The notes beneath the pieces were generated by a model. The model was not told the origin of the DNA, searched no databases, and saw nothing but the letters and a program-made list of their open reading frames with translations. The translations under genes were made by a program, and so were the position numbers. A DNA stretch of 64,000 nucleotides from Prauserella alba (GTDB lineage Bacteria > Actinomycetota > Actinomycetes > Mycobacteriales > Pseudonocardiaceae): NCBI RefSeq assembly GCF_024171735.1, contig NZ_JAMTCH010000004.1:1116001-1180000 (forward strand), written 5' to 3'. Shown here in pieces: positions 6,665 through 50,390 of the stretch (position 1 is the stretch's first letter; every line of letters starts with the position of its first letter).

Positions 6665-6747
6665 CCGTGTTGCAGATCCCGGAGCCCGTGTTGCAGGTTC
6701 CGGGGACCGTGTTGCGGATCCCGGGGGCCGTGTTGTGAACTCCGGGG
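6665..6747 (+). repeat. 21-bp tandem repeat array, locus 1 (4 units)
   Basis: Units begin with CCGTGTTG at 6665, 6686, 6707 and 6728, a strict 21-bp period. Unit bodies vary around CCGTGTTGCGGATCCCGGGGG. It lies between the convergent thiD and phosphodiester-glycosidase genes. The same unit occurs at five other places in this window. No unit is self-complementary enough for a simple terminator hairpin. Confidence 0.9.
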
Positions 6748-6779
6748 CCGCGGGGCGAGCGCTCGGGGCGTGTGGCGGG

Positions 6780-8048
6780 TCAGCGCGTGAACACCCCCAC
6801 GCCGTTGGCGACGGCCCTGGGCTTGCCGTCGGAGGGCATGTTGCGCACGAGGGCCCGCTCGTCGCCGGGCTCACGGGTGACGAACGTCGAGGAGCCGCCA
6901 CCGTCCAGGTTGACGCCGTCGACGGCACCGAACGACCGCAGCAGGTCGGCCAGCTCGGCCACGGTCGTCCCGGCGCTCTCTGCCGACCGGCCGTCGACGA
7001 CCGTCAGGTACACGGTGCGCCCGTCGGAGCTGACGCCCGCTGCCGTCCGCGGTGCGAGCACGCCGGTGTCGAGCCCGGGCAACGGCGCGCCGTCGCGCAG
7101 GATCGGGTAGCCGCCGACGGCGAAGGCGAACGGCGGCACCGGCTCGTCCCCGTCCAAACCGGACCGGACTCGGACCCGGTCGCCCTCGTCGAGCGCCTCG
7201 AGTCTGTCCGCGCCGTCCTCGCGGCCCACCAACACGGTCGCACCCGCCGGGATCGGCCCCTCGCCGGGCTCGTCCCGTTCGGCTACGACGACACCGCCCT
7301 GGACGACCACCTCCTCGGTCTCGTCGCTGCAGGGTGCCTGCCGGTTCGTGTCGGTGCCACACGTGGGACGCACCCGGCTCATCGGCCCCCAGTCGGCCGT
7401 GTACACGCCGATGCCGTTCTCGGGCAGCGCGTACTGATTCATGCCGTCGACACCGAAGGCACCGTCGGAGGTGCGGACCGTGCCGGTCACGTCGAGCGTG
7501 GACACCCGGGCCTTGCGGTCGGCGCCCATACCGAACACGTCCCGAGTGGACGTGCCATGAGGCAACGCGGGACCGAACCGCTGACCGTCGGGAACCGCGC
7601 CCTTCAGCGCGTCGCCCGCCGCGATCGCCGGGCCGACCGACGATCCCGTCGGCTCGATGCCCTCGTGCGAGTCGCTGATGTTGAAGAAGTCGCCGTTCAC
7701 GCCCGCGATCGCGCCCTGGGCGTTCGCCATGTCGGGGATCTCGTCGCGCTCGGCGACCACGCCGGGGTGCAGCAGGCCGATACGCGCTTCCCGCAGGTCG
7801 ACCGTCAGCACATGACCCCGCACGGCACCTGCGTCCGTGTCCATTGTGAACGGACGGTGGGTCACGCCTGGAGCGAGCACGGTGCCGGACTGCGCCGTGT
7901 TCGCAGGCCTGTCGAAGGCGGTGCTGCCGAACGGGGTGGCGACGCCGGACGCCGTGGCGGCCGGAGGGGCGGCGACACCGCCGAACAACACAGCGCACGC
8001 GGCGGAAACGGAAACGAGGGAGCGGGGCACCTGCCGTGATCGCGTCAT
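6780..8048 (-). CDS. Exported phosphodiester glycosidase (NAGPA-domain) protein
   Basis: 422 residues from the chosen ATG at 8048. A signal peptide is visible: SRQVPR, a hydrophobic core (SLVSVSAACAVLFGGVAA) and an Ala-rich cleavage zone. The mature part carries the NAGPA signature (IAGVNGDFFNI, later YLTVVDGRS, VNLDGGGSSTFV near the C-terminus), found in enzymes that cut GlcNAc-1-phosphodiesters and in bacterial exported proteins of the same fold. The substrate here is unknown; a cell-wall or exopolysaccharide phosphodiester is plausible. A longer form starting near 8093 is possible but would spoil the signal peptide. It is the last gene before a 21-bp repeat array. Confidence 0.85.
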   Translation of the reverse strand: MTRSRQVPRSLVSVSAACAVLFGGVAAPPAATASGVATPFGSTAFDRPANTAQSGTVLAPGVTHRPFTMDTDAGAVRGHVLTVDLREARIGLLHPGVVAERDEIPDMANAQGAIAGVNGDFFNISDSHEGIEPTGSSVGPAIAAGDALKGAVPDGQRFGPALPHGTSTRDVFGMGADRKARVSTLDVTGTVRTSDGAFGVDGMNQYALPENGIGVYTADWGPMSRVRPTCGTDTNRQAPCSDETEEVVVQGGVVVAERDEPGEGPIPAGATVLVGREDGADRLEALDEGDRVRVRSGLDGDEPVPPFAFAVGGYPILRDGAPLPGLDTGVLAPRTAAGVSSDGRTVYLTVVDGRSAESAGTTVAELADLLRSFGAVDGVNLDGGGSSTFVTREPGDERALVRNMPSDGKPRAVANGVGVFTR

Positions 8049-8143
8049 GGCACGAAGGCTGGCAGTGCCGAACACCGCGCATGTGATCGTCATCGGGCCG
8101 CCGGTTGAAACGCCGGTGAACGAAGCCCGCTCACCGGCACGGC

Positions 8144-9846
8144 TCACCACCGACACAGGGGGTGGAGCCTGCCGTCCTTGCGCACACACGGCACGTAGCC
8201 CGCACTGTGCAGCTCGTCGCGCGCGGTGCCGCTGCGCAGGTACTCCAGGAATCCGGACTGCAGCGGTGTCCCGCCGGCTTCGCCCTTCGTGTAGAGGTAT
8301 TCGATCGTCCAGAACGGATAGCCGTCCGGAATGTTGCCGGGATCGGGGTAGCGCCGTCCAGTTCGACGACACTGACGGTGCGACCCTCGGAGCGGGCGTC
8401 GTTGGCCGACGGGACGTCGACGTATCCGATGGCTCCGCGGGTGCTGGCCACCTCGTCGAGGACGATGCGTTCGCTGCCGCGTTCGCATCGCACGATGTCG
8501 GCCTCGGCCACGCGGTCGGCCCCGTCGCAGCTGTCGGAGGTCAGCCCCCCCCCCGATCTGCCCAGCACGCGCTGCTCGAACGTCGTCCGTGACCCGGATT
8601 CACCGCCGCGGCCAACGACTCGGATCGGCACGGACGGGCCGGGGCGAAGTTGCTCCCAGTCGCGATACCTACCGCTGTAGATGCCGCGGACCTGCTGCGT
8701 GGTCAACTCGTCGACGCCCACGGACTCGTCGACCACGAGCGTGTAGACGATCACCGCGAGCGGGTTCGCCTGCAACCGCCGGCTTTCCTGGCGGGCGAGT
8801 CCGTCGGACAGCGCGGCGGTGGAGCCTGGCCGGACGTCGTCGCTCATCAGTTCGCGCACACCTGCATTGCTGCCGGTCGGCCGTGTCGTGATCACCGCAC
8901 CGGGACACGCCGACGCGTAGGACTCGGCGATGTTCTCGACGGCGGGTGTGAACGCGCTCGAGCCTACGACGGCCAGCTCGCCGTCACCGCACGCCACCGT
9001 GGGGTCCGCCGTCGGTTTGGATGCGTTGGCGAGCAACGTCGCCAGCAGCACGCCCACCAACAGCAGGCCGCCCATCGCGGTGGCGCGCGGCCAGGTCACA
9101 CCGGCCTGTTCGTTCTCGTCGACGATCCGGCCACCGTCCAGCTTCCCCTGCACGTCGAAGCCCTTGGTGAGCTCACCGGTGTCGCCGGGTTCCCTGAGAA
9201 CCACCGCGATCTTGAGTTGTTCCTTTCGCTGCAGCGAGAATTCGTTCAGTTCGATGCGTATCCACTGTGGAACTTCCGGTTTCGGTTCGGCGGAATCCGC
9301 CTCCTCGTCACGCCGGCGTGGCCACAGTTTGCGGCGACGTGGTCCGCACCTCCTGGAGATTCGCCGGGGACACCTCGCCGCGTGCGGGTGTGGCCTTCGT
9401 TTCCGGCAGGAACGTCAGGCTCCGTTTGTGCGCGAGGCGATGCGTCTCCACGCTGGGATCCGAGATGCGCGCATTCCAGATGACCCTGCCACCGAACTCC
9501 AGCGTCAGCGGATGCCTGCTCAGGTCCTCCGCGCGGATGTCCTCGATCCCCGCGTTGCGCAGCCGGACGACGGCACTCGTCATCCGGCTCATCTTGTCGG
9601 CGAGCTCGTGCATCCCGCGTCGGCATCGGGCGGGATCTCACCGAAGACGTCCCCGTCGTCCAGATCGGGGCTCACTCCGAGCTTGGAGTTGTACAGCACC
9701 CGGTACGACAGGCGGTTGCGGCGGATCAGGTGACGGTCGGCGAACGGCGCGGCGATCGCGAGCACCGACAGCACCAACATCACCAGCATGCCCTGATCCG
9801 ACCCCAGCACAGAGGCGATGGTCTGCAGCGTCTCCGCGATCTTCAT
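8144..9846 (-). pseudogene. PstS-like substrate-binding membrane protein gene with three frameshifts
   Basis: Read leftward from ATG 9846, four pieces together give one coherent protein. Piece 1 (9846 to about 9610) is an N-terminal membrane segment (MLVMLVLSVLAIAAPFA). Piece 2 (about 9613-9310) is a beta-rich domain containing RLRNAGIEDIRAEDL. Piece 3 (about 9305-8355) has a membrane segment (GGLLLVGVLLATLLA) and a phosphate-binding-protein-like domain (VVGSSAFTPAVENIAE, GESGSRTTFEQRVLG). Piece 4 (about 8352-8144) continues YPDPGNIPDGYPFWTIEYLY to the stop. Junctions at about 9611 and 8352 each need one added base; the one near 9312 needs one removed. I cannot tell decay from sequencing error. 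A 10-C tract at 8545-8554 lies in piece 3 but is read in frame. Confidence 0.8.
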
Positions 9847-9965
9847 GGTGTTCGCAGAGTACGAGCAGGCACCGGGGCCGATTACCTGTCAGAACCGATC
9901 GTTCACGCTGTGTTCACACCCCCGCCCGCTGGCCTGATCCGGAAGGTGCAAGCGACACTGGAGGG

Positions 9966-10805
9966 ATGACCACCCGACCTCCTGCCGCGCTGACGATCGC
10001 GGGCTCCGACTCAGGCGGGGCCGCGGGACTGCAGTCCGACCTGCGCACGTTCCTGACCTGCGGAGTCCACGGGCTCGTCGCCGTGACGGCCGTGACGGTG
10101 CAGAACACGCTCGGCGTCCACGACAGGGCCGACGTCCCCGCACGCATCGTGTCGGGGCAGATCGCCGCCGTGGCCGCCGACATGGGTGTCGACGCCGCGA
10201 AAACGGGCATGCTGGCCTCGGCCGACATCATCCACGAGGTCGCCGACGCCTGCGACGACGCCGGGATCGGCCGGGACGCCCGGGTGCCGTTCGTCGTCGA
10301 CCCGGTGGCAGCGTCGATGACCGGCCACCCGCTGTTCGACGACGGCGGCCTCACGGCACTGCGCGAGCGCCTGTTGCCCCGCGCGACCGTACTCACGCCG
10401 AACCTCGACGAGGTCCGCCTGCTGACCGGCATGGACGTCACCGGCAGGGCACAGATGCGTGACGCCGCACTCGCGCTGCACGAGCTGGGACCCAGGTACG
10501 TACTGGTCAAGAGCGGACACCTGGTGCAGGACGACGAATGCGTCGACCTGCTCTACGACGGGTCCGAGTTCGTCGAGCTGCCGGGCCCGCGGCACGACAC
10601 CCCGCACACGCACGGCGCGGGCGACGCGATGGCGTCGGCGTTGACCGCGGGACTCGCCCGCGGCATGACCATGGTGGACGCAGCCCGGTTCGCCAAGGCC
10701 TTCGTCACCAGGGCGGTCGAGCATTCGTACCCGATGGGGGCGAAGATCGGCCCCGTGTCGGCCTTCTGGCGTCTCGCACCGGAGGAGTTCGGCCCGGATT
10801 CCTGA
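9966..10805 (+). CDS. thiD: ThiD-family kinase, second copy
   Basis: 279 residues. It closely resembles copy 1 in the same blocks (TIAGSDSGGAAGLQSDLRTF, DMGVDAAKTGML, DPVAASMTGHPL, DTPHTHGAGDAMASAL). It has the GAGD segment of the ribokinase fold. The ATG at 9966 follows GGAGGG. It has no TPP riboswitch and no thi neighbour, so it may serve HMP or pyridoxal salvage rather than regulated synthesis. The near-identical active-site blocks argue for duplication within the lineage. Confidence 0.92.
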   Translation: MTTRPPAALTIAGSDSGGAAGLQSDLRTFLTCGVHGLVAVTAVTVQNTLGVHDRADVPARIVSGQIAAVAADMGVDAAKTGMLASADIIHEVADACDDAGIGRDARVPFVVDPVAASMTGHPLFDDGGLTALRERLLPRATVLTPNLDEVRLLTGMDVTGRAQMRDAALALHELGPRYVLVKSGHLVQDDECVDLLYDGSEFVELPGPRHDTPHTHGAGDAMASALTAGLARGMTMVDAARFAKAFVTRAVEHSYPMGAKIGPVSAFWRLAPEEFGPDS

Positions 10806-10890
10806 GCCCGACAACCGCGCACACAGCGACACAGCGACACCGTGCTCACCGCGTCCGGCGGGCGGGAAGACCGGTCACGACGGCACGGCG

Positions 10891-11008
10891 CGCTCCCGAA
10901 TCCGCAACACGGGCTCCCGAATCCGCAACACGATCGCCTGGATCCGCAACACGGCCCCCGGAAAGCGCAACACGGGCTCCTGGACCTGCAACACGGGACT
11001 GAAGGGCT
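10891..11008 (+). repeat. 21-bp tandem repeat array, locus 2 (5 units)
   Basis: GCAACAC cores start at 10904, 10925, 10946, 10967 and 10988, exactly 21 bp apart, reading in the opposite orientation to locus 1. It lies between the convergent thiD copy 2 and a GntR regulator gene. Spacer bases between cores vary; the period does not. Confidence 0.9.
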
Positions 11009-11031
11009 CGGGTCGTGGAAGTTCGCCTCGG

Positions 11032-11838
11032 CTACGCGTCCACCTCGCGCGGGGTACCGTCGCCGACAACCGTCTCTCGGGCATCGGCGGCGTCGAGCCG
11101 GACCGAGGTCATCAGGTCGCCGGTGAGATCCAGTTCGTCGGTGCCGCTGGAGGCGATGTAGGTGAGGATGCGTTCGCGGAAGAGCCGGATGTGGCCGACC
11201 GCGATCACCTCGGCGGTGGCGGGATCCCGATCCTCGTACGCGTCGATGAGTGTGGAGTGATCGTGGCTCACTCGCGCGAAATGGTCGTCGAGCCGGCTGG
11301 AGTTCCAGTCCTCCGCGCCGCCGAACGCCAGGTATCCCAGTCGCTGCCCCTCGTCCTGGATGCGCGCGGCGAGCACGGCGAGATACTCGTTGCGGGCGAT
11401 GCGCGCTTCGAGGTTGTGCAGGGCCGCGTTCGATTCGGCGATGTCCGGCGCGGATCGGCGCTGGATCGCATCGTTGACGAGCGCGTCCGCTTCGCGCAAC
11501 TCGGCGATCTCGGCGGCGGTCACCCGGTTGGCGACCAGCTGCGCGATCGCCTTCGCCGTGACGATGCTGGCTTCGAAGAAGTTGCTGATGCCAGAGATGT
11601 CCATGGGCCGCACGGTGAATCCGCCGCCGGGGTGGGCCTGAATGAGGCCCTCGGAGGCGAGTCGGAACAGCGCTTCGCGCGCCGGGGTCCGGCTGAGTCC
11701 TAGTTCCTGACTGAGCTGTACGTCGTCGACCCATTCACCGGGCGCGAGGCGCAGGGTCATGTAGCGCGCCTTGATCTCGGTGTACGCCCGTTCCATTTGC
11801 GTCCGCTGTCGCCGTCCCACGTAACCATCCTGGCACAT
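11032..11838 (-). CDS. GntR family regulator, FCD type
   Basis: 268 residues. An N-terminal winged helix (about 15-85: LAPGEWVDDVQLSQELGLSR, TPAREALFRLASEGL) is followed by an all-helical FCD ligand-binding domain with the metal-type ligands D and H spread along it (HNLEARIARNEY, RVSHDHSTLIDA, AVGHIRLFRE). It is divergent from the V4R/MFS/amidohydrolase operon, with only 47 bp between the start codons, so it most likely controls that operon and itself. The start at 11838 (MCQDGY) was chosen over the ATG at 11796; either keeps the DNA-binding domain. Confidence 0.9.
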   Translation of the reverse strand: MCQDGYVGRRQRTQMERAYTEIKARYMTLRLAPGEWVDDVQLSQELGLSRTPAREALFRLASEGLIQAHPGGGFTVRPMDISGISNFFEASIVTAKAIAQLVANRVTAAEIAELREADALVNDAIQRRSAPDIAESNAALHNLEARIARNEYLAVLAARIQDEGQRLGYLAFGGAEDWNSSRLDDHFARVSHDHSTLIDAYEDRDPATAEVIAVGHIRLFRERILTYIASSGTDELDLTGDLMTSVRLDAADARETVVGDGTPREVDA

Positions 11839-11851
11839 CGTTTTCGCACCC

Positions 11852-11879
11852 TTGACCCGCAGTGGACGCTCTGTATTAT
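11852..11879 (+). promoter_or_regulatory. Sigma-70-like promoter, candidate leaderless transcript
   Basis: TTGACC (11852-11857), a 16-bp spacer and TATTAT (11874-11879) form a near-consensus vegetative promoter. Only six bases separate the -10 element from the ATG at 11886. Transcription would therefore start at or next to the start codon, and no Shine-Dalgarno is present. This predicts a leaderless mRNA. The site lies in the 47-bp gap shared with the divergent GntR gene. Confidence 0.65.
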
Positions 11880-11885
11880 TTCTGC

Positions 11886-12443
11886 ATGCAAAATCAGGCG
11901 TCTGAACTTCCGGTCCCAGTCGAGGTCGACCACGACACCGGGCAGTGGAGGGTCGACGGACTGCCCATGGTGCTGGTTCCTCAGCACCTGCTCGTGAACA
12001 ACTTGGACGCGGTCGAACAGCGACTGGGCCGCGACGAATCCGCCGAGCTGTTCCGGGACGCCGGTCGACGGTCGGCCTGGCACTGGTGCGCCCACGAGTC
12101 GGCGCGACTCGGCCTGTCCGGTGCCGCCATCGTGCGGCACTATCTCGATCGCTTGAGCCGCCGCGGATGGGGGCGCTTCGAGATCGACGCGCTCGACCCG
12201 TCACGGGGCGAGTTGAGCGTCCGAGTGCGGCACTCCGCACTCCTGCCCGTCGACGGCTCGGACCGTTCCGTCGACCGCGCCTGCTACCTGTTCGAGGCGT
12301 GGTTCGAGGGCGCGCTGCAGTACACCTCGGGCAGATCCGGAACCGTGCCGGTCCGGGAGACCCGGTGCGGCGTCAACGCTGACGAATGCCTTTTCACCAG
12401 CGACGGACCTGGAAGGTGCCATGACAATCAACGACGTCCCTGA
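11886..12443 (+). CDS. V4R-like (4-vinyl reductase fold) small-molecule-binding protein
   Basis: 185 residues. It resembles the V4R/DUF5943 group: MVLVPQHLLVNNLDAVEQRL, then a helical region with AWHWCAHESARLGLSG, and a late FEAWFEGAL followed by a Cys near the C-terminus (ETRCGVNADECLF). In related proteins this fold binds hydrocarbon-like ligands or heme. It starts at the probable leaderless ATG and overlaps the MFS gene by 23 bp, so it belongs to the operon. A sensing or accessory role in the catabolic pathway is inference. Confidence 0.7.
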   Translation: MQNQASELPVPVEVDHDTGQWRVDGLPMVLVPQHLLVNNLDAVEQRLGRDESAELFRDAGRRSAWHWCAHESARLGLSGAAIVRHYLDRLSRRGWGRFEIDALDPSRGELSVRVRHSALLPVDGSDRSVDRACYLFEAWFEGALQYTSGRSGTVPVRETRCGVNADECLFTSDGPGRCHDNQRRP

Positions 12444-13749
12444 CGCGAGAATGATCCGCAAGGTCATCCGCGCGGCATCCATCGGAAACTTCGTCGAGTG
12501 GTTCGACTTCGCGCTCTACGGCTTCCTGGCCACCGAAATCGCCACCAATTTCTTCCCGAGCGGTGACTCCACCGCCGGTCTGCTCAAAACCTTCGCCGCA
12601 TTCGCCGTGGCTTTCGCACTACGGCCCATCGGAGGCGCGTACTTCGGCGCGTTGGGTGACCGCATCGGCCGCAAGCGCACGCTGGCCATCACTGTGCTGC
12701 TCATGGCCGGATCAACGGTCGCGCTCGGACTGCTGCCCGCCTACAGCGCGATCGGGATCGCCGCGCCGATCTTGCTCGTTCTCATCCGCTGTGTGCAGGG
12801 ATTCTCCACCGGCGGCGAATACGCCGGTGCCTGCGCCTTCGTGCTCGAGCACTGCAACCGGGGCAGACGCGCGTGGTACTCCAGCTTCCTGCCCGTGAGC
12901 ACGTTCGCGGCGTTCGGCACCGCAGCCACGGTGTCCTTCGCCTTCAGTAGCTGGCTCGGCGCGGATGTCATGACCGAATGGGGCTGGCGCGTCCCGTTCC
13001 TCGTCGCCGCCCCGTTGGGCATCTGCGGCTTCTACATCCGGCAGAAGCTCGATGAAACGCCGGACTTCCAGCAGGTCGCCGACAACGACACGGTCGCGTC
13101 GGCGCCGCTACGGGAGGCCGTGCGGTCGCATGGGCCCACCATGGCGAAGCTCGGCCTGTTCATCTGCACCACCGCGCTGTCGTTCTACATGTTCACCACA
13201 TACATGACGACGTATCTCGAGGTGACAGCCGGGCACAGCGCCTCGATGACGTTGCTGTCCAATGTGCTCGCGCTGATGTTCGCGGCGGCGTTGTGCCCAT
13301 TCGTCGGGCGCTTCTCCGATCGGTTCGGCAGGCGCGCGACCATGTTCACCGCCTCGGGATTGTTGGTCGTCGGTGTGCTGCCGGCTTTCCTGTTGGCAGG
13401 CAACACGGGGCTGACGTCCGCGGTCCTCGGGCAACTGGTGCTGGCACTGGGCGCCGTGTCGTGCAACGTCGTGACCGCGGTCCTGCTCGTCGAACTGTTC
13501 CCGACGCGCGTCCGATACACGGCCTCGGCGCTCACGTACAACCTCGCCTACGCACTGTTCGGCGGAACGGCACCGTTCATCGCGACCTTCTTGATCGAGA
13601 TCACCGGTGACCCGTTGGCTCCCGCCTACTATCTCGCGGTCGCCGCGTTGTTCGCGCTGTTCGCCGCATGGGCGCTGCCCGAGACCTCGCGTAGCTCGTT
13701 GTCCGCCACCGAGTCCACATCCCACGAGAGAGGACGGAGCATCGCATGA
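12421..13749 (+). CDS. MFS transporter, metabolite:H+ symporter (ProP/ShiA-like)
   Basis: 442 residues with about twelve membrane segments. The N-terminal SIGNFVEWFDFALYGFLA, the loop GALGDRIGRKRTL and the RCVQGFSTGGEYAGA segment are hallmarks of the MHS group, which imports organic acids or osmolytes with protons. It overlaps the upstream V4R gene (23 bp) and the downstream amidohydrolase (ATGA). It probably imports the amide or organic-acid substrate that the amidohydrolase processes. The exact substrate is unknown. Confidence 0.92.
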   Translation: MTINDVPDARMIRKVIRAASIGNFVEWFDFALYGFLATEIATNFFPSGDSTAGLLKTFAAFAVAFALRPIGGAYFGALGDRIGRKRTLAITVLLMAGSTVALGLLPAYSAIGIAAPILLVLIRCVQGFSTGGEYAGACAFVLEHCNRGRRAWYSSFLPVSTFAAFGTAATVSFAFSSWLGADVMTEWGWRVPFLVAAPLGICGFYIRQKLDETPDFQQVADNDTVASAPLREAVRSHGPTMAKLGLFICTTALSFYMFTTYMTTYLEVTAGHSASMTLLSNVLALMFAAALCPFVGRFSDRFGRRATMFTASGLLVVGVLPAFLLAGNTGLTSAVLGQLVLALGAVSCNVVTAVLLVELFPTRVRYTASALTYNLAYALFGGTAPFIATFLIEITGDPLAPAYYLAVAALFALFAAWALPETSRSSLSATESTSHERGRSIA

Positions 13750-15437: not shown

Positions 15438-15510
15438 GGTCCCGCGAATCCGCAACACGGTCCCCGGGATCTGCAACACGGGCCCGCGGATCCGCAACAC
15501 GGGGTGCCGG
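15438..15510 (+). repeat. 21-bp tandem repeat array, locus 3 (3 units)
   Basis: GCAACAC cores at 15452, 15473 and 15494, 21 bp apart. It fills most of the gap between the convergent amidohydrolase and MarR genes. Confidence 0.88.
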
Positions 15511-15525
15511 GTGCAGGACATGCGT

Positions 15526-17076: not shown

Positions 17077-18224
17077 CGGACGCGCTCCTTCACACGATCG
17101 GGATGTGCCGCCGCGACGCCCGGCGGTGGTTCGCAGCCGGAGAGCCACGCGGCGACGGCGTCAGCCGTGACGGGTGCGAGCAGCAGCCCGCCGCGGTGGT
17201 GGCCGGTCGCGGCGTACACCCCGTCGGCGACCTCTCCCAGCAGCGGCAGGTTGTCGGCGCTGCCCGCGCGCAGGCCCGCCGCGGTCTCGACGACCTCGTA
17301 CTCCGCGACGCCGGGGAACACACGCTCGGCGGCGTCCAGCAGCCGCCGCACGCCGCGTGCCGTGACGGCCGTGTCGAATCCCGCCTCGTACTGCGTCGCG
17401 CCGACCACGAGATCACCGTCGCCGGAACCGCCCCGACCACGCGGTACGAGATACACCGGCTCGCCTTCGACCACCGCGCGGACCGTTCCGGACGGCGGCG
17501 GCAGCGTCGTGCGCCGCGAACGCAGCCGCAGGACCTCACCTTTCAACGGCCGGATGTGCTCGCCGACGTCCGGCAACAGCGACCGGCTCCAGGCGCCCGC
17601 GGCCACGACGATCGCCTCCGCCGGATACTCGCCGCGCACGGTGCGCACCACGCCCGGTTCGACGCCGACGACCTCCTCCGGCACCGAGACCGCACCACGG
17701 GCCGCCGCGCCGTCGTGCAGCGCGGCCAGCAGGCGACGCGTGTCCACCGCGAGGTCGCCGGGGACGACGAGCCCACCGGTGACCGCACCCGCCAGTCCCG
17801 GTTCGATCCGCCGCAGCCGCCGCGCCGGCACGTACGTCGCCTCGCGGCCCAGCTCGTGCAGGTAGCCGGCGAGCGTGTGCAGGTTTTCGGCGTCGGTGCG
17901 GTCGAAGGCGGCGACGACGGTGCCCGACGTCGAGAGCGCGGGATCGTGCCCGCAGGCGGCCAACTCCTCGGCGAACGCGGGCCAGCGGCGCAGCGACTCC
18001 TCGCCGAGCGCCAGCACGTCCTCCTCACCGGGCCATGCCTCGGTGACGGGCGCGAGCATCCCGCCCGCGACCCGCGAGGCCGCGCGTTCGGGCGCCGGAT
18101 CGAACAGCGTCACACGGTGCCCGGCGGAAACGGCCCGCCACGCGACGGCAAGGCCGACGACACCGCCTCCCACGACGGCCACCTCGGTCGCACCGGCAGA
18201 AGCCGGGACGGCGAGTTCGGACAT
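17073..18224 (-). CDS. thiO: Glycine oxidase ThiO
   Basis: 383 residues. This FAD enzyme oxidises glycine to the dehydroglycine used by ThiG. The N-terminal FAD-binding [19 protein letters not shown] is clear, and [20 protein letters not shown] with [18 protein letters not shown] form the C-terminal FAD/substrate part. The ATG at 18224 sits directly after a TPP riboswitch on the same strand. It is the first gene of thiO-thiS-thiG and divergent from thiE. Confidence 0.95.
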
Positions 18225-18233
18225 ACGATTCAC

Positions 18234-18342
18234 GCTCCCTGCGCCGGCATGATCCGGATCAGGTTCCACGGTCGGAGTCGGCGCCGATGCGGCCCGGTAC
18301 TCCCTCTCAGCCCGGCAGGGCTCCCGTGCGGACACCCCCAAC
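18234..18342 (-). promoter_or_regulatory. TPP riboswitch upstream of thiO
   Basis: On the minus strand the region reads GGGGGTGTCC, then CTGAGAGGG, then ACCTGATCCGGATCATGCCG followed by GCGCAGGGA, the classic THI-element blocks. The final AGGGA sits about 12 bases before the thiO ATG, so the aptamer can control ribosome access, as at thiC. The promoter must lie at or beyond 18345, inside or against the start of the divergent thiE. Confidence 0.95.
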
Positions 18343-19019: not shown

Positions 19020-19105
19020 CCCTCGCGCCACCTTGCTGCAGCCCTGCGGGGCCGCACCGCGTGTCCTGCGCTCCGCACTCGCGTGTCCTGCGCTCGGAAG
19101 CCGGA
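19020..19105. repeat. Second intergenic repeat family (CGCGTGTCCTGC type) between convergent genes
   Basis: Two copies of CGCGTGTCCTGCGCTC lie near 19050 and 19082. Just before them, CCTTGCTGTAGCCCT (including the thiE stop) is repeated as CCTTGCTGCAGCCCT. The gap separates convergent thiE and a membrane-protein gene. Related CGCGTGTCCTGC/CGCGTGTCCCGC copies occur at 58050-58140 and 60121-60135. Confidence 0.6.
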
Positions 19106-19118
19106 CACTGCAGGGCGG

Positions 19119-25557: not shown

Positions 25558-25660
25558 CCCGTGTTGCACTCCGCGACCCGTGTTGCACTCCGCGGGGCCC
25601 GTGTTGCGGGTTCCGGGAGCTGTGTTGCGCTTCGCGGGGCCCGTGTTGCGTTCCCGCGTC
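25558..25660 (+). repeat. 21-bp tandem repeat array, locus 4 (5 units)
   Basis: GTGTTGC cores at 25561, 25580, 25601, 25622 and 25643: one 19-bp and three 21-bp steps. It starts within 10 bp of the SGNH hydrolase stop. This is the one array not between convergent genes; the next gene (25923) runs the same way. Confidence 0.88.
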
Positions 25661-25922
25661 GGCTGTCGGCGTCCACTGCGTCCGGTCGGCCGCGGCGGGA
25701 GGACCGAAGTGGGAGGGCCGAAGCCGGAGGACCAAAGCGGGAGAACCGAGGCGGCAACCGGAGAACCGAGGCGGAGCGGCAGCCGGACGCCGCGTTCACG
25801 GCTGACGACATCGACCACGCCGCTGCCGGACGGACCACGCCCCTCCCGGAGGCTCACCACTCACACGCGTCACTCCCGTCGCTGCGTTCGCGGGGTGGGT
25901 GGTTCACGCCTATCGTCGTTGC
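25661..25922. other. Intergenic region with degenerate GGAGAACCGAGGCGG repeats
   Basis: Between 25700 and 25790 the DNA is a run of imperfect units of about 13-17 bp (GGAGGGCCGAAGCC, GGAGGACCAAAGC, GGAGAACCGAGGCGG twice). The remainder up to the OmpA-family start shows no gene I can support. The promoter for the OmpA gene is expected in the last 100 bases. Confidence 0.5.
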
Positions 25923-40654: not shown

Positions 40655-40730
40655 CCGTGTTGCGCTTCCAGGGGACCGTGTTGCAGTTTCAGGGGGCCGA
40701 GTTGCGCTTCCCGGGGCCGAGTTGCGTCCG
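40655..40730 (+). repeat. 21-bp tandem repeat array, locus 5 (4 units)
   Basis: GTGTTGC/GAGTTGC cores at 40657, 40678, 40699 and 40719 (steps 21, 21, 20). The last two cores have GAGTTGC, so this locus looks the most eroded. It lies between the convergent GH63-like and DUF445 genes. Confidence 0.85.
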
Positions 40731-40758
40731 CCTGCCACCGGCCCGGCAACGGTCGTGG

Positions 40759-43008: not shown

Positions 43009-43122
43009 CTACCGCACCGGCACCTGCCCGAGACCGCCGCAGTTCGGGCACGGCCCCTTGCGGTTCGGGGTCAGCCCAGAGCCGTGGCAACGCGGACAGT
43101 CGACCATGTCGCCGACCTTCAT
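43009..43122 (-). CDS. 37-residue zinc-ribbon (DnaJ-type CxxCxGxG-like) peptide
   Basis: A very short gene. It reads MKVGDMVDCPRCHGSG with a second half GPCPNCGGLGQVPVR, i.e. two CPxCxG knuckles (CPRCHGSG and CPNCGGLG) resembling half of a DnaJ zinc centre. The ATG at 43122 follows GGGAGGTG with six-base spacing, which strongly supports translation. It stands alone. It could bind zinc and act as a small chaperone-like or partner peptide; the function is unknown. Confidence 0.75.
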   Translation of the reverse strand: MKVGDMVDCPRCHGSGLTPNRKGPCPNCGGLGQVPVR

Positions 43123-44095: not shown

Positions 44096-45057
44096 GCCCG
44101 CACCGGGTTGTTCTCGGCGGGCAGTTCCAGTTGCGGCAGTGCGCCGGCGATCTGCTCCCGCGTCGGTTCGAGCCACGGTGGCAGCTTCAGGGCCCTCCCG
44201 AGCTCGAGGAGCGGCTCGTCGATGTCGAAGCCGGGCCCGTCGGTCGCCACCTCGAGCAGCACGCCACCCGGTTCGCGGAAGTAGATGGAGCGGAAGTACT
44301 GCCGGTCGAGCACCGACGTGACGCCGACGCCCGATCCCACGAGCTCCTCACGCAACGCCAGCTGCTCGGCGTCGTCGTCGGCTCGCCACGCGATGTGGTG
44401 CACCGTGCCGCCCGCGACCACGCCCTTCGGCGCGTCCGGCGTGACCTCGACGTCGACGAACGCCCCTGGACCTCCGTCGCCTGCCCGGAACCGGAACCGG
44501 CCGGAACTCTCTCCCGCGAGCGAGAGGCCGAGGGCGTCGGTGAGCATCGCTGTCGTCGCATCCGCCGAGGTCACGGACATGGTCACCGAGTGCAGCCCGC
44601 GGACCGCGTGCTCGGCGGGCACGAACGGGGTGTCCCACGGTGCGCGCGGGTCGGGTTGCTGGTGAGCGACGAGGGCGAGCTGCAACCCGTCCGGGTCACG
44701 GAAGGTGAGCGCTTCCTCGTCGTCACGCGTCACGACCGTGCCCGGCCCGACGCCCGACGCTTCGAGGTGCTGTTTCCACCAGCCGAGCGAGTGCTCCGGA
44801 ACGGAGAACGCCGTCGTCGTGGCCTGGCCGGTGCCGATACGCCCGTTCGGCACGCCACGCCACGGGAAGAACGTCAGCAGCGTGCCGGGCCTGCCGGCCT
44901 CGTCGCCGTAGTACAGGTGGTAGGTCTCCGGATCGTCGAAGTTGACGGTCGTCTTCACCAGCCGCAGCCCGAGCGTGCGCAGGTAGAAGTCGACGTTGCG
45001 CTGCGGATCGCCACCGATGGCGGTGACGTGGTGCAGGCCGCTGGTCTCAAAGCCCAT
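44092..45057 (-). CDS. VOC-family ring-cleaving dioxygenase (MhqO-like)
   Basis: 321 residues with two glyoxalase/dioxygenase modules. The N-terminal module begins GLHHVTAIGGDPQRNVDFYL and ends FRDPDGLQLALVAHQQPDP; the C-terminal module begins GLHSVTMSVTSADATTAMLT and ends YFREPGGVLLEVATDGPGFD. Metal ligands HHV, H and E are in place. This matches the LinE/MhqO group acting on (hydro)quinones. The start at 45057 follows GGAGGAG. It is divergent from a MarR regulator with a repeated element between. Confidence 0.93.
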   Translation of the reverse strand: MGFETSGLHHVTAIGGDPQRNVDFYLRTLGLRLVKTTVNFDDPETYHLYYGDEAGRPGTLLTFFPWRGVPNGRIGTGQATTTAFSVPEHSLGWWKQHLEASGVGPGTVVTRDDEEALTFRDPDGLQLALVAHQQPDPRAPWDTPFVPAEHAVRGLHSVTMSVTSADATTAMLTDALGLSLAGESSGRFRFRAGDGGPGAFVDVEVTPDAPKGVVAGGTVHHIAWRADDDAEQLALREELVGSGVGVTSVLDRQYFRSIYFREPGGVLLEVATDGPGFDIDEPLLELGRALKLPPWLEPTREQIAGALPQLELPAENNPVRA

Positions 45058-45136
45058 GGCGATCTCCTCCGAACTCGATGCGGTCGACGCTATCCGGAAA
45101 ATCTCTCGCGTGCAAGACATATTCTGTCAAGATTCC

Positions 45137-45210
45137 TATAGGCAAGACTCTTCGTCATAAGAAGCATCCTTGCTAGAGTCATCGGCGCGAGAGTCATCGC
45201 AGCGAGAATC
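45137..45210. promoter_or_regulatory. Candidate MarR operator region with direct repeats
   Basis: AGAGTCATCGGCGCG (45175-45189) is followed directly by AGAGTCATCGCAGCG (45190-45204) and a partial AGAATC. Just upstream lie CAAGATTC and CAAGACTC around the 8-bp palindrome CCTATAGG. The stretch is AT-richer than its flanks and lies between the divergent MarR and dioxygenase starts. Confidence 0.6.
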
Positions 45211-45243
45211 TTTGGCCGGAATCGGCATGTAGGGTGGATCACC

Positions 45244-45705
45244 GTGACGACAGAGCCGGACGACGACGAAATCGTGACCTGGTGGGGCCTCGTGATCGAG
45301 GGCTACCTGGCCACCCAGGACCGACTGATGGGCGAGATCGCGCAACGCTTCGACCTTCCGCCTGCCTCGTTCGACATCCTGGTACGACTCGTTCGCTCAC
45401 CGGATCACCGACTGCCGATGACCCGCCTCGCGAAAGAAGCCGCGCTGTCGAGCGGTGGGTTCACCAAGGTCGCCGACCGCCTCGTGGCCGCCGACCTCAT
45501 CGAACGGATACCCAGCGCAGAAGACCGCCGCGTCACGTATGCCCACTTGACCGATCACGGCCTCGAGGTGGCGTCGAACGCGCGCAAGGCGTGCGCCGAC
45601 ATCCTGCGCGAACGCGTACTCACACCGCTGGGGCAGCGTTCGTCCGAGGAACTCGCCGAGGCCATGCGCACTCTCCGCAGCGTCAACGGCCCTAACCCCG
45701 CGTGA
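45244..45705 (+). CDS. MarR-family regulator (MhqR-like)
   Basis: 153 residues. The winged helix (LPMTRLAKEAALSSGGFTKV, ADRLVAADLIERIPSAEDRR, VTYAHLTDHGLEVASNARKA) is clear. It starts with GTG at 45244. Its position opposite the dioxygenase-hydrolase pair equals the Bacillus mhqR arrangement in content. Repression of the pair, relieved by quinones or phenols, is inferred. A Cys lies in the C-terminal helix (KACADILRERV) but the sensing residue cannot be assigned. Confidence 0.92.
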   Translation: MTTEPDDDEIVTWWGLVIEGYLATQDRLMGEIAQRFDLPPASFDILVRLVRSPDHRLPMTRLAKEAALSSGGFTKVADRLVAADLIERIPSAEDRRVTYAHLTDHGLEVASNARKACADILRERVLTPLGQRSSEELAEAMRTLRSVNGPNPA

Positions 45706-45775
45706 CCGCCGAGCCACCGCGACCGGCTCCGGCCGCCGCGGCAGGCACCACCGACGACAGCCGGAACCGGCCACG

Positions 45776-46942
45776 TCAGACCTCGACCGGCGGTTCGACG
45801 GGCATCGCGTGCGTGGCGAGGTCGCCCTCGTCGGCCGACCGCACCGTGACCGGGGCCGAAGGACCCCGGATGTCGAGCATCACGTCCGGCCCCACGGCCG
45901 TCGCCACGGCGGGATGCAGCACCACGGCCGCGAACCACACCTCGGTGTCGGCACCGTCCACCGTGGCCGCGACGACACGCTCGGCCGCCCCGTCCGCACC
46001 ACTGCAGGCCCCGGCGTCGGGTTCTGCATCGGGTCCGGCGGCGGGTTCCGCCAGGACACATTCGCCGTCGCGGACGCGCAGGCGAATCGTCGGCGCGACG
46101 TGACTCTCGATCGCGTGCAGCAACGCTCGCTTGGCGACGACCACCCGCGTCACGGGGTCGGCCAGACCGCTCAGCAACGCGTGGTGGTCGGGGAACTCGC
46201 CCCCGAGCAGTCCACAGCGGACGTCATCGGCCACATTCCGGTCTCGCACGTTCCTGCCTCCCGCGTTGCCGCCACCGCTGTCCACCACGCCGTGGAACCG
46301 CACCCCGTCCGGCAACGCCTCGAGCCGCACGAGGTGCCTGCGGCGGAGCTCGCCGAGTACGCCCCGCAGGTCGGCCCCGCTGACCGTCGCCGCCCACTCG
46401 GCACCGGACAGCTCCTCCGGCACGAGCGTGCGGGTGGCCAGCCGGTACCGGTCGGTGGCCGTCAGCGTGAGCGAGTCGCCGCTCACCTCCACCCGCACCC
46501 CGGCGATCGCCGGATAATCCTCCGCGACACCGGTCGCGACCAGGACCTGGTCGACGGCGGCTGCGAACACGGGCCCCTTCACGGTCACGAGCGGCACCAC
46601 GTCCTGCCCTGTCAGTGCCGCCTTCACCTCGACCGCCAGCCGACGCGCCGCATCCGCCCGCGCAGCCAGCGATGCCACGTGCTCGTCGATCATCCGTGCG
46701 GCGCGGGTCGGGTCGGCGGTCAGCACCTGTTCGACGGTCACGAGGGGCATGTCGAGCTCCCGCAGCCGCCGCACCGTGACGGCCCGTTCCAGCTGGTCGA
46801 CGTGGTAGTAGCGGTACCCGGAGCCCGCGTCGACGTCGGCGGGGTGCAGCACGCCGGAGTCGTCGTAGAACCGGAGTGCGCTCGCGGTGAGACCGCTGCG
46901 GCGGGCGAACGTTCCGATGGGGATCAGTTCTGTGTCGGTCAT
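45776..46942 (-). CDS. MerR regulator fused to DNA polymerase III beta-clamp-like domains
   Basis: 388 residues. Residues 1-75 are a MerR winged helix (IPIGTFARRSGLTASALRFY, GYRYYHVDQLERAVTVRRLR), followed by a coiled helix (TRAARMIDEHVASLAARADA). From about 115 the sequence matches sliding-clamp domains: FAAAVDQVLVATGVAEDYPA, LTLTATDRYRLATRTLVPEE (the TDRYRL beta-clamp hallmark), GEFPDHHALLSGL, and a C-terminal block ending VTVRSADEGDLATHAMPV like a clamp end. Two of the three clamp domains seem present. It is divergent from the iron-boxed siderophore gene; the target is unknown. Confidence 0.85.
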   Translation of the reverse strand: MTDTELIPIGTFARRSGLTASALRFYDDSGVLHPADVDAGSGYRYYHVDQLERAVTVRRLRELDMPLVTVEQVLTADPTRAARMIDEHVASLAARADAARRLAVEVKAALTGQDVVPLVTVKGPVFAAAVDQVLVATGVAEDYPAIAGVRVEVSGDSLTLTATDRYRLATRTLVPEELSGAEWAATVSGADLRGVLGELRRRHLVRLEALPDGVRFHGVVDSGGGNAGGRNVRDRNVADDVRCGLLGGEFPDHHALLSGLADPVTRVVVAKRALLHAIESHVAPTIRLRVRDGECVLAEPAAGPDAEPDAGACSGADGAAERVVAATVDGADTEVWFAAVVLHPAVATAVGPDVMLDIRGPSAPVTVRSADEGDLATHAMPVEPPVEV

Positions 46943-47068
46943 GGCAACGATGCTGGGCTTTCAGGCAACTCGAAGGTCAACTCCCGGCTCTGGCGGAACC
47001 CGCCGGACGGAGCACACCCTCGTGGTCACGAACCGTGGTCGGAGGATCACCCCACCGTGGGCCGACGA

Positions 47069-47088
47069 TTAAGGTAAGACTACCCTTA
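47069..47088. promoter_or_regulatory. IdeR/DmdR-type iron box
   Basis: TTAAGGTAAGACTACCCTTA fits the actinobacterial iron box (TTAGGTTAGGCTxxCCTAA), with inverted arms TAAGGTA and TACCCTTA. It ends 30 bp before the siderophore gene's GTG start. Iron-loaded repressor bound here would shut off the gene in iron-rich conditions. Confidence 0.8.
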
Positions 47089-47117
47089 CAACGACGCCGA
47101 TTCCTTCGAGGTGGTCC

Positions 47118-48641
47118 GTGACCGTCGCCCCGCGGCCCTATCCGCGTGCGCAGCAGGCCACGATCCGGCGTCTGCTCAACGCGTACCTGCGGGAGAACGG
47201 GTTCCACGAGATCGCCGAGGGGCCGTTGACCGTGCCGCTGCCCGCCACCGGCGACGTCCTCCGGGTGACGGTCACCTATGCCTCACCCACCGGCCACCAC
47301 GACTACGCCGACACCTCGCCACGCGTGATCGACACCGTCCTCGGCGAACTGGCGGGCCGCACCGGGTTCGCGGGTGCCCGGGTGCTCCGCGCGCAGATCG
47401 ACGGCAGCATCGACCGCACGGCCCGATACCTCGCACAACCCCGGCAGCGCCGAGAACGAGATCGGGCCGACGATCCGCACCGCGATTCCGAGCAGAGTGT
47501 CCTGTTCGGACACCCGTTCCATCCCACGCCGAAGAGCGCCGAGGGCTTCAGCGACGCCGACGTCGACGCCTTCGCACCCGAACTCGGCGTCTCGTTCGAG
47601 CTGCCCTACGTCGGCGTGGCACGACGCCTCACCCTGACCGAGGGCGACGTCACCGTTCCCGCCGACGTCGCGGCAAGCGTGCCCGACGGCTACGTGCCGC
47701 TTCCGATGCACCCGTGGCAGGCGCGGCACCTGCGGCGCAACCCTGCGGTGCGCCGACTCGCAGGCGAGGGCGCACTGATCGACCTCAGCGCGCACGGCGA
47801 GGTGTATCCCACGTCGTCCGTGCGCACCGTGTGCGATCCGGCCGCTGGCGTCGCTTGGAAGCTGCCGTTGCACGTGCGCATCACGAACTTCGTCCGCAAC
47901 ACGCCGGCCGAGCAACTGCGCCGCTCCGCCGACGCCACCCGCGCCGTCGCGCGCCTGCCCCGCTACGACGGCTTCGACGTCACGGCCGAGACCGGACTGC
48001 GCACACTCGACCCGGCAGCGGTGGGCGACGACCTGGCCGCCGAGATCAACGCCGTGTGCCGGGTCGCACCCGACCGGCAGGCCCGGGTCCTGGCAGGACT
48101 GCTCGACGAACCGGCCGTACTCGCCCGGCACGTCGAGCGTTCCGGCGACGTCGCGGAATGGCTGCGCCGGTACCTCCGGATCGCACAGCTTCCGTTGCTG
48201 ACGGCGTTCGCCGACCACGGCATCGCCTTCGAGGCGCACGTCCAGAATTCGCTGCTGCGATTGGACACCGACGGCGCACCGGAGCGGTTCCTGGTGCGCG
48301 ACATGGAGGGCGTGGCGATCTGCCGTGAGCACGCGGGCGAGCTGCCACCGGACAGTCCGGCCCTCCACGACGAGGAGGATGCGTGGCGCCGGCTTTGCTA
48401 CCACGCGGTGACGAACCAGTTGGCACACGTCGTCCACGCCATCGGCAGGAACACCGCATCCGGTGAGTTACCATTGTGGACGGTTGCGGCCGCCGAACTC
48501 CGGCGTTCCGCGGTGGCCGAGCGCCTCCTGGAGTCCCCCGAACTCCCCGCTAAGGCCAACCTGCTGAGCCGGTTCACCCAGCGCGGCGAACGGCCCCACT
48601 ACGTCCGAATCCCCAATCCACTGTGGATGGCGGCACGTTGA
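47118..48641 (+). CDS. IucA/IucC-family NIS siderophore synthetase
   Basis: 507 residues. It joins carboxylates to amines or hydroxylamines via acyl-adenylate. VPLPMHPWQARHLRRN (the HPWQ motif), VYPTSSVRTVCDPAAGVAWK, KLPLHVRITNFVRNTPAEQL, GIAFEAHVQNSLLRLD and FLVRDMEGVAICREHAGEL (FhuF-like C-terminal part) are all family features. GTG at 47118. It is followed by an MFS gene, probably the exporter. No other biosynthetic gene is next to it, so it may act on a substrate made elsewhere. Confidence 0.93.
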   Translation: MTVAPRPYPRAQQATIRRLLNAYLRENGFHEIAEGPLTVPLPATGDVLRVTVTYASPTGHHDYADTSPRVIDTVLGELAGRTGFAGARVLRAQIDGSIDRTARYLAQPRQRRERDRADDPHRDSEQSVLFGHPFHPTPKSAEGFSDADVDAFAPELGVSFELPYVGVARRLTLTEGDVTVPADVAASVPDGYVPLPMHPWQARHLRRNPAVRRLAGEGALIDLSAHGEVYPTSSVRTVCDPAAGVAWKLPLHVRITNFVRNTPAEQLRRSADATRAVARLPRYDGFDVTAETGLRTLDPAAVGDDLAAEINAVCRVAPDRQARVLAGLLDEPAVLARHVERSGDVAEWLRRYLRIAQLPLLTAFADHGIAFEAHVQNSLLRLDTDGAPERFLVRDMEGVAICREHAGELPPDSPALHDEEDAWRRLCYHAVTNQLAHVVHAIGRNTASGELPLWTVAAAELRRSAVAERLLESPELPAKANLLSRFTQRGERPHYVRIPNPLWMAAR

Positions 48642-48753
48642 CGGTCGGCGAAGCCCGGTCCTGAACGGCTCCCGGCCGACGTTCGCGGCGCAGGCGCCGG
48701 CAGGCCCACCCCACGCGAACCGCACCGGGCGGCCAACGCGAGAGACTGCACGG

Positions 48754-50151
48754 GTGAGCACCGACCGCACACCCCGAGATCCCGGATCCTCCCCCGACTC
48801 GCCGCGTGGGCTTCGCGCGTGGTTGGGAACAGGGCCGTGGGCGAAACTGCAGGGCATCGTCGTCGCCGGTTCGGCGGGCGAAGGGCTGATGCTGGCGACG
48901 ATGCCGTTGCTGGCCGTGACTGTCACGACGGATCCGCAGGCGGTGTCGCTCGTGAGCGTCGTCGGCCAGTCGCCGTGGCTGCTGCTGTCGCTGCTGGCCG
49001 GTCTGCTGGTCGATCGTGTGCGCAGGACGAGCGTGCTGATGTACGCCTACGCGGTCCAGGTGGCGGCCGCCGCGGCGCTGGCGATCGTGGCCACATCGGA
49101 CGCGCTCACGCTGCCGCTGCTGATGTGCGTGGCGTTCGCGATCACGTCCGCGCAGGTGCTGAGCGACGGCGCGAGCGGGGCGCTGCTGCCCACGATCATG
49201 GCGCGCGACGACCTGCCCGCTGCGAACGCCCGCCTCCAGGTGATCGACCGTGGTCTGGTGCAGTTCGTCGTACCGCCGTCGGCGGGCGCGGTACTGGCGA
49301 TCGGGCTGGGCGCACCCGCCTGGGCGGCGTGCGCCATGGCGCTGCTGGCACTGCTGCTGAGCGCTCGGCTCCGCACAGCCGTGGAACCGAAGGCTGCCGT
49401 GGAATCGAGCGCTGCAGCCGAGCGCGGGCCCGCTGCCGCTCGGGAACCGGGCGCACGGGGCAATCCACTACGTGACATCGTCGAAGGACTGCGGTATCTG
49501 GTCGCCGCGCCGCTGCTGCGGTCGGTCACGATCACGGTCGCGCTCGGCTCGTTCGCCTCCAGTGGCGTGACGACGATGCTCGTGCTCTACGCGACCGAGG
49601 AGCTGGGCGTCGGCCGGTTCGGCTACGGCGCACTGCTGGGGTGTTTCGCCGTCGGCTGGGTCGTGACCTCGCTGTTCGTGGACCGGCTCGTCGCACGGTT
49701 CGGCTACGCGTGGGCGATGCGCTGCGCACAGACCACGGCAGCCGTGACGCCCGTGCTGATCGCCGTGGCCCCGCCGTGGCCGATGTTCGTGGGCGCGGTG
49801 CTGGTGGCGCAGTCGTCGGCCGTGCTGGTGTGGAACGTCTGCTCGCAGTCGACGCGACAGCGCTTCACGCCCAACCGCCTGCTGGGACGGGTCCTGACGA
49901 GCCACAAGGCGCTCGCCTGGGGACTGACGCCACTGGGTGCTCTCATGGGCGGATTCGTCGCGGCGCAGTGGAACCTGCGCGGCGTGTGGTGGATCGCCGC
50001 GATCATCCACGCCGTCGGCGCCGTGACCGTGTGGCGCACCATGACGCCTGCCGCCTTCCGGCAGACCGAACACGATCACGAGAGCGGCCGCGCGCAGGGT
50101 GACGATTCCGAGGGTGGCCATCGCGAGGACGGCACCGAAGCCAGAGCCTGA
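48754..50151 (+). CDS. MFS transporter, probable siderophore exporter
   Basis: 465 residues with about ten to twelve membrane segments, of the enterobactin-exporter-like group (QSPWLLLSLLAGLLVDRVRR, NARLQVIDRGLVQFVVPPSA, SQSTRQRFTPNRLLGRVLTS). A hydrophilic loop of 30 Ala/Glu-rich residues lies near residue 210. It begins with GTG at 48754, 112 bp after the siderophore synthetase. It probably exports the product of that gene; the assignment rests on context. It is followed by a 21-bp repeat array. Confidence 0.85.
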   Translation: MSTDRTPRDPGSSPDSPRGLRAWLGTGPWAKLQGIVVAGSAGEGLMLATMPLLAVTVTTDPQAVSLVSVVGQSPWLLLSLLAGLLVDRVRRTSVLMYAYAVQVAAAAALAIVATSDALTLPLLMCVAFAITSAQVLSDGASGALLPTIMARDDLPAANARLQVIDRGLVQFVVPPSAGAVLAIGLGAPAWAACAMALLALLLSARLRTAVEPKAAVESSAAAERGPAAAREPGARGNPLRDIVEGLRYLVAAPLLRSVTITVALGSFASSGVTTMLVLYATEELGVGRFGYGALLGCFAVGWVVTSLFVDRLVARFGYAWAMRCAQTTAAVTPVLIAVAPPWPMFVGAVLVAQSSAVLVWNVCSQSTRQRFTPNRLLGRVLTSHKALAWGLTPLGALMGGFVAAQWNLRGVWWIAAIIHAVGAVTVWRTMTPAAFRQTEHDHESGRAQGDDSEGGHREDGTEARA

Positions 50152-50256
50152 CCCGACCCCGCGTAGCGCGATCCACCCGTGGTCCCACCCGCAACCACAG
50201 ACGGGTCCGCCCGGAGCCGGTCCCGCGGGCAGACGGCAGGTGGGCCCACCACCGGC

Positions 50257-50390
50257 CTCCGGAACCTGCAACACGGTCCCCGGAATCCGCAACACGAGCC
50301 CCCGAACCCGCAACACGAGCCCCGAACCCGCAACACGAGCCCCGAACCCGCAACACGGTCCCCGGAATCCGCAACACGGGTTCGCGGGGG
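50257..50390 (+). repeat. 21-bp tandem repeat array, locus 6 (6 units)
   Basis: GCAACAC cores at 50268, 50289, 50310, 50330, 50350 and 50371 (steps 21, 21, 20, 20, 21). Three central units are nearly identical, suggesting recent copy-number change. It lies between the convergent MFS gene and the metal-dependent-hydrolase gene, touching the stop of the latter. Confidence 0.92.

Follow-up and report, generated by a model that had tools for sequence, protein, structure and literature searches.

Tandem 21-bp arrays at gene ends in Prauserella: a possible undescribed gene-end signal

To our knowledge, how transcription is ended and how converging genes are insulated from one another is not settled for high-GC actinobacteria. 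A 64,000-nucleotide stretch of the Prauserella alba genome (contig NZ_JAMTCH010000004.1, positions 1,116,001 to 1,180,000; the window) puts the question in concrete form: what are the short tandem arrays of a 21-bp unit with a GTGTTGC core that lie scattered through its intergenic gaps, most of them between converging genes? We found that such arrays commonly sit in sense just past stop codons. Because their core and their beat look selected, and because they mostly avoid gene ends that carry the usual hairpin stop signal, the arrays may be a gene-end signal that has not been described.

Arrays behind stop codons

Six arrays had been reported in a first-pass annotation made from the sequence alone, and all are present, with 4, 5, 3, 5, 4 and 6 GTGTTGC units (one mismatch at most), 27 in total. 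As it had stated, the units are spaced by 21 bp apart from one spacing of 19 and three of 20, both orientations occur, and five of the six arrays lie in convergent gaps, the sixth (25561-25663) standing behind a stop in a tandem gap; here and below, gene ends are those of a home-made gene caller. All six share the strand of the gene whose stop comes before them. A pair of cores with 14 bases between them (at most two mismatches) matches 18 times in the window, versus 0.46 expected and 3 or fewer in 100 shuffles; one of the 18 matches (28373) falls outside the arrays.

An array finder that requires two exact cores returned 110 arrays from seven genomes, of which one, at the end of a stretch, was dropped. 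The stretches of G000 were chosen where matches are dense, and those of G009, G230, G261, G286, G334 and G317 around known matches (G and L numbers are our handles for genomes and loci), so that densities in them are biased. Behind the stop of a gene on the same strand lie 83 of the 109 arrays, 55 of them in convergent and 28 in tandem gaps, and the first core follows the stop by a median of 19 bp (within 60 bp in 60 of the 83). When read by eye, 6 of 7 arrays viewed in G001 and 5 of 7 in G009 were in sense and adjoined a stop. Pooled over G000, G003 and G004, called gaps contain 83 of 88 arrays, with 44 between convergent, 33 between tandem and 6 between divergent genes. The convergent share (44/83) compares with 16% expected by base pairs (P = 1e-14) or 21% by junction (P = 1e-10); divergent gaps, which hold 7% of the arrays versus 27-28% expected, are depleted. 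The proposed enrichment between convergent genes is therefore real, but the commonest rule is a different one, namely sense orientation just past a stop, which about a quarter of the arrays break; the convergent enrichment arises largely because arrays follow this rule. Since arrays occur in other assemblies of the genus too, they are neither an artefact of local assembly nor the remnants of a single coding repeat.

The arrays of the window, with their neighbours, are the following.

6667..6750, plus strand: array of four 21-bp units, 3 of them with an exact core, 35 bp past the stop of a thiD-like (hydroxymethylpyrimidine, HMP, kinase) gene, in the convergent gap 6632-6779
10890..10994, minus strand: array of 5 exact units in the convergent gap between a second thiD-like gene (plus) and a GntR/FCD regulator gene (minus)
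15438..15521, minus strand: array of 3 exact GTGTTGC units and one adjoining GTGTCCTGC-like unit, in the convergent gap between an amidohydrolase gene (plus) and a MarR regulator gene (minus)
19061..19103, plus strand: second-flavour array of 2 units with the GTGTCCTGC core, in the convergent gap 19020-19118; absent from the first-pass annotation
25561..25663, plus strand: array of 5 exact units (spacings 19, 21, 21, 21), 12 bp past the stop of a GDSL lipase gene, in a tandem gap
40657..40739, plus strand: array of 4 units (2 exact cores), 14 bp past the stop of a gene for a glucosylglycerate hydrolase, whose convergent neighbour is a DUF445 gene
50254..50377, minus strand: array of 6 exact units (spacings 21, 20, 20, 21, 21), 13 bp past the stop of gene 50391-51173 (minus strand), whose convergent neighbour is an MFS-like transporter gene (a label that rests on matches below the NCBIfam cut-offs)

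Several of these gene ends carry arrays in other species. The gene end next to the two-unit array at 19061-19103 has a GTGTTGC array at its orthologous place, with 5 units in G003 and 6 in G004. Sense arrays are found at the GDSL lipase gene end (25548) in 5 of the 7 genomes of the genus and at the end of gene 50391-51173 in 4 of the 7, G001 being included both times with a different flavour, that is, a different core. Directly behind the array at 25561-25663 lies a 14-bp tandem repeat (25695-25754). Two thiamine pyrophosphate (TPP) riboswitches (4004-4125 and 18219-18337) share the window with the two thiD-like genes; both are Rfam matches above the gathering score, and no such match falls at an array.

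Core, spacing and place across genomes

The conservation of the unit was measured on middle units, those between two exact cores 42 bp apart, which are hence not conditioned on their own core; loci from a named-genome collection were reported apart, having been fetched by three exact cores. The middle unit retains the core in 117 of 124 cases, with each core position conserved at 97-100%. Two spacer bases are nearly fixed as well, the last base ahead of the next core (97%) and base 15 after the core start (99%), and the remaining spacer positions range from 40% to 90%. Among nearest cores no more than 70 bp apart, 192 of 209 pairs are spaced by exactly 21 bp; spacings of 19, 20, 22 and 23 total 7, and the rest are mostly 42 and 63. 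Isolated cores are not in excess (27, versus 31 ± 17 for 60 permuted heptamers), and single cores were set aside as acting sites on this ground. From these comparisons, core and spacing look to be under selection.

Place and orientation persist as well. In directed orthologue comparisons of gene ends with a sense array (which overlap and are not independent), the orthologous end also has a sense array in 120 of 204 (60 pairs, counted from both sides), an array in the opposite sense only in 0, and none in 84; the base rate of sense arrays is 72 in 1616 ends. The spacers do not persist: their likeness between 33 orthologous array pairs (0.614) is near that between 932 unrelated pairs (0.599), versus 0.653 within one array, and the unit numbers of orthologous arrays are uncorrelated. 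What persists is the array, with its core, beat and place, and not the intervening letters.

Such turnover of spacers and unit number might be expected of repeats, neutral or selfish, which spring up and lengthen in the least harmful places, past stops and away from promoters and hairpins. The avoidance of divergent gaps would fit, as would the finding (below) that orthologous ends lacking an array are compact gaps with no hairpin. Plain copying, however, would hold neither seven core positions at 97-100% beside a neighbour at 40% nor a spacing of 21 so nearly invariant; place and orientation are kept between species, and the lack of excess isolated cores indicates that single copies do not seem to spread. 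We consider this explanation unlikely. Far more improbable, and already disfavoured, is a hot spot of insertion or recombination (integron-like, CRISPR-like or a transposon end). One array junction in G004 is indeed 1.4 kb longer than in G001-G003, but genes flanking arrays are still adjacent in 50 of 52 comparisons, versus 163 of 174 for array-free junctions (P = 0.74), and one array used as a query had no match in 72,556 plasmid records. The CRISPR and integron-like readings were set aside on unit length, dispersion and gene adjacency, the arrays being dispersed and having 2-7 units of 21 bp (CRISPR was compared without a search for cas genes).

How far do the arrays extend? In the 5.6-Mb source genome, exact cores are paired at 21-bp spacing 217 times, and the reversed pattern has no match. 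In a set of 60 genomes, 6 of the 7 from the genus have 85 to 471 exact pairs and G001 has none; the remaining 53 have 0 to 2. G001 has a flavour of its own with a GTGTCAGC core, detected by a tandem-repeat scan that presupposes no pattern, and the GTGTCCTGC flavour of the window has 58 exact pairs in the source genome and 187 in G006. A pattern of four GTGT at 21-bp steps matches in 97 of 297 Pseudonocardiaceae genomes: 76 to 277 times in all 7 Prauserella genomes and at least 25 times in 19 genomes from seven other genera of the family, with reversed controls of 30 or fewer. G261 has 22 such matches, below its reversed control of 45. The distribution is patchy, some genera including species with no match; G026 and G087, two species of one genus, have 29 matches and 1 match. 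Across the class (296 genomes), the source genome alone exceeds 16 matches to this pattern, the next best reaching 16 with a control also of 16.

A lag scan of non-coding DNA, which is blind to sequence, ranked lag 21 first in all nine array-bearing sets examined. The score is clear in G000 (32, with the next lag, 15, at 18), G001 (7), G009 (7), G261 (8), G286 (10) and G317 (6), and low in G334 (3), G002 and G230 (1 each). Ten genomes picked for few or no matches scored 0 at lag 21, with the exception of G025 (L248-L249), which scores 4 there and 3 at lag 22, has a GAGTCCC-type unit and has almost no GTGT-anchored arrays. Other genera of the family have 21-bp flavours of their own, patchily.

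The named-genome collection gave, among the matches listed, at least 80 loci, 41 of them from Prauserella; we inspected 28 of the other 39. Many of these 28 are (GTGTTGC)n runs or regular repeats, and the heptamer runs of unrelated bacteria (L034, L044, L048, L056, L075, L107 and others) are a different kind of repeat that fits the same pattern. Psychrobacillus and Sporosarcina were conspicuous among the inspected loci, with GTGTTGC-core 21-bp arrays at L086, L088 and L100 (Psychrobacillus) and L081 (Sporosarcina). Exact core pairs number 40 in Psychrobacillus sp. BL-248-WT-3 and 10 in Sporosarcina quadrami, with controls of 0 and AT-rich spacers; of two further genomes tested beside them, one has 2 pairs and the other 6, the control of the second being 9. 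The arrays of these Bacillales may be a sign of a wider class, or may be chance among many 21-bp repeats, because the collection was scanned for exactly this core and spacing. Viral contigs gave 65 stretches with three cores, and the 64 units viewed (the units alone) resemble regular repeats of other kinds.

Hairpin terminators and the action of the arrays

Do the arrays share gene ends with hairpin terminators? Each end was scored by the best hairpin in a 45-nt window within 120 nt past the stop, which leaves giant hairpins invisible, and hairpins of -30 kcal/mol or lower were counted as strong. At convergent junctions the median best hairpin was -30.9 kcal/mol for 287 array-free ends, versus -23.9 for 38 ends with a sense array and -22.1 for the 37 partner ends facing them. 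The corresponding proportions with a strong hairpin were 53%, 13% and 16%; the deficit has P of about 2e-5 for sense-array ends and 1e-5 for partner ends. In the window, a hairpin of -33 or stronger is present at 5 of 7 array-free convergent junctions and at 0 of 6 array junctions. The arrays lack the stable hairpin just past the stop that defines an intrinsic terminator, yet the 13% of sense-array convergent ends do reach -30. A hairpin shifted to behind the array was sought in the 110 nt that follow and was not found (medians -22.1 in tandem and -22.7 in convergent gaps). In orthologue groups where some member bears an array, 7 of 46 array-less members have strong hairpins, versus 120 of 255 in groups without any array. 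Gene ends therefore form two classes, and the arrays belong to the class without strong hairpins.

This partial exclusion is not predicted by topology alone, which argues against a node that draws gyrase or a nucleoid protein to the 3' ends of genes, the places where positive supercoils gather, and leaves transcription running. A core held at 97-100% and flavours specific to genera likewise suggest a specific, evolving reader and not gyrase. The placement of the arrays does suit such a node: in E. coli and yeast, positive supercoiling builds up at convergent and 3'-end places (PMC8360656). Wrapping would go with a beat of two turns of the helix, and the orientation bias is incomplete. On balance we think this fairly unlikely.

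The arrays might instead work as RNA, a sense array in the 3' untranslated region of the mRNA binding a factor for termination, processing or decay. Closeness to the stop, including most arrays viewed in G001 and G009, fits this possibility. Structure was scored over 88 Prauserella arrays against dinucleotide shuffles (single-base shuffles in one other run): sense RNA is somewhat more structured than antisense, with z below -2 in 24% versus 9%, but the mean z of single arrays is merely -0.94 (antisense, -0.19). In two other genera of the family, where two arrays are often found facing one another, facing arrays (L259, L261, L262, L264, L267, L268 and L270) form giant hairpins, 7 of 8 stretches having z below -4; 5 of the 8 lie in gaps called convergent, and one stretch, refolded with 200 shuffles, gave z = -11.3 in a gap called tandem. 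Facing arrays occur at just 3 of 40 array-bearing convergent junctions in Prauserella. The earlier statement that the units are not hairpins thus holds roughly: single Prauserella arrays are weakly structured, the more structured quarter of sense arrays notwithstanding, and giant hairpins arise from the facing pairs of the two genera. Against an RNA element stand, besides the low mean z and the lack of an Rfam match at the window arrays, the existence of antisense arrays, one of them conserved in three species, and a base composition in which C is not above G in every flavour (read by eye), and which is therefore unlike general rut sites. We rate an RNA element as quite unlikely.

The reading that we tentatively prefer, while granting it somewhat less than an even chance, is that the array is a gene-3'-end element which a DNA-binding factor coats, so as to act as a barrier or terminator at the gene end. 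The analysis shows the place of the arrays, their sense-strand bias, the conservation of core and spacing, the turnover of spacers and the partial exclusion of hairpins; that there is a factor, that it binds, that it acts on transcription and that its specificity drifted is inferred. A cooperative DNA-binding protein is suggested because the core is fixed, the two-turn beat is rigid, single cores are not in excess and most intervening bases drift, and an action at transcript ends is suggested by where the arrays lie. In such a mechanism, 2-7 head-to-tail sites, one per two helical turns, would be coated cooperatively by a sequence-specific factor, and the coated array would stop or insulate RNA polymerase at ends that have no intrinsic hairpin terminator, mostly between converging genes. 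The specificity of the factor would have drifted between genera, giving each its flavour. A DNA-binding protein or termination factor, as the first-pass annotation proposed, would agree with the conservation of core and spacing and with the partial hairpin exclusion, but no such factor has been found, and the orthologue test described next does not support the further idea that an array replaced a hairpin.

Several observations weigh against a protein-coated barrier or terminator. Where the orthologue of an array-bearing end has no array, it too mostly lacks a strong hairpin (13% have one; paired P = 0.20), and its gap has a median of 74 bp, so that such gene ends can do without either device. 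In tandem gaps strong hairpins are as frequent with arrays as without (22% each, P = 0.26), the exclusion is weak in G001 (strong hairpins at 33% of 6 ends versus 40% of 10), samples from other genera are too small for the exclusion test, and the Psychrobacillus arrays with the same core (L088 and L100) adjoin ordinary-looking terminators when read by eye. Placement has its exceptions too: 26 of the 109 arrays break the sense rule. Of these, 15 stand antisense between tandem genes, 9 lie between divergent genes and 2 fall within a called gene; a search for missed genes explained just 2 of the 26. The antisense array behind a gene of 561-562 residues is found in G000, G003 and G004, which are three species. 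Of 56 arrays in convergent gaps, just 35 are nearer their own-strand stop (P = 0.08). No binding protein was found, no proteome comparison having been made. Our confidence in this reading, and in the widest one given below, is lower because missed genes account for few of the exceptions to the sense rule and because the sense RNA is weakly structured.

Known repeat families and meaning

As the first-pass annotation had it, no described family with this unit was found in the literature searched, which largely leaves out subscription journals; searches by sequence led, among the matches listed, to unrelated papers. The closest described relatives are the STAR elements and the heptamer repeats of Xanthomonas and Nostoc. 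STAR elements of Staphylococcus have a 14-bp motif, T(G/A/T)TGTTG(G/T)GGCCC(C/A), with spacers of 40-44 bp; their function is given as unknown, the authors suggest purifying selection, and the locus described has a start signature (PMC3532100). Like the Prauserella arrays, they are direct repeats between genes whose motif is conserved and includes TGTTG, whose spacers differ by lineage, and whose copies expand and contract locally (PMC3532100). A conserved motif with variable, lineage-specific spacers, by which STAR elements are recognized, is thus found here as well, but it is insufficient for membership: the arrays have a 7-bp core at 21 bp (192/209 pairs) in place of a 14-bp motif with longer spacers, and the STAR motif has 0 matches in the window at up to one mismatch.

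The GGGNATC-type repeats of Xanthomonas and Nostoc, whose 7-bp unit forms G4 structures and which prefer gaps between aligned genes, resemble our arrays in being dispersed tandem arrays in non-coding DNA, on the coding strand past the stop and under-represented between divergent genes (PMC4692102). They differ in unit length and in preferred gap, the arrays here having a 21-bp unit and favouring convergent gaps. Runs of three GGGNATC units had 0 matches in the window at up to two mismatches. REP/BIME elements are linked to gyrase and to gene 3' ends. They too have many intergenic copies, with roles proposed in termination, mRNA stability and supercoiling (PMC3733652, PMC3116915), but REP units are palindromic and the 21-bp units are not: 3 of the 6 window arrays have no inverted pair of 8 nt or more, and the pairs in the other 3 are short, imperfect or distant. 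The Sal-box/TTF-I and Reb1 terminators of eukaryotic rDNA, and Tus-Ter, are oriented protein sites placed after a gene or at a fork stop. They serve as a working analogy alone, with no claim of a shared protein or sequence, as they act on Pol I or on replication forks.

Taken at its widest, the finding would add a class to the transcription-end signals of bacteria: sites locked to one period and read by a dedicated DNA-binding protein, which in several genera of Pseudonocardiaceae would divide gene ends between themselves and hairpin terminators, with site and protein co-evolving into the flavours of each genus. We regard this as doubtful. An element present a hundred-odd times at gene ends poor in strong hairpins, its core and beat conserved, nevertheless makes the question of how transcription ends in these bacteria testable. 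Since the spacers turn over fully but the core, the beat, the place and the orientation last, and since the core is not the same from genus to genus, the arrays are also a case for studying the joint change of a signal and its reader across a genome.

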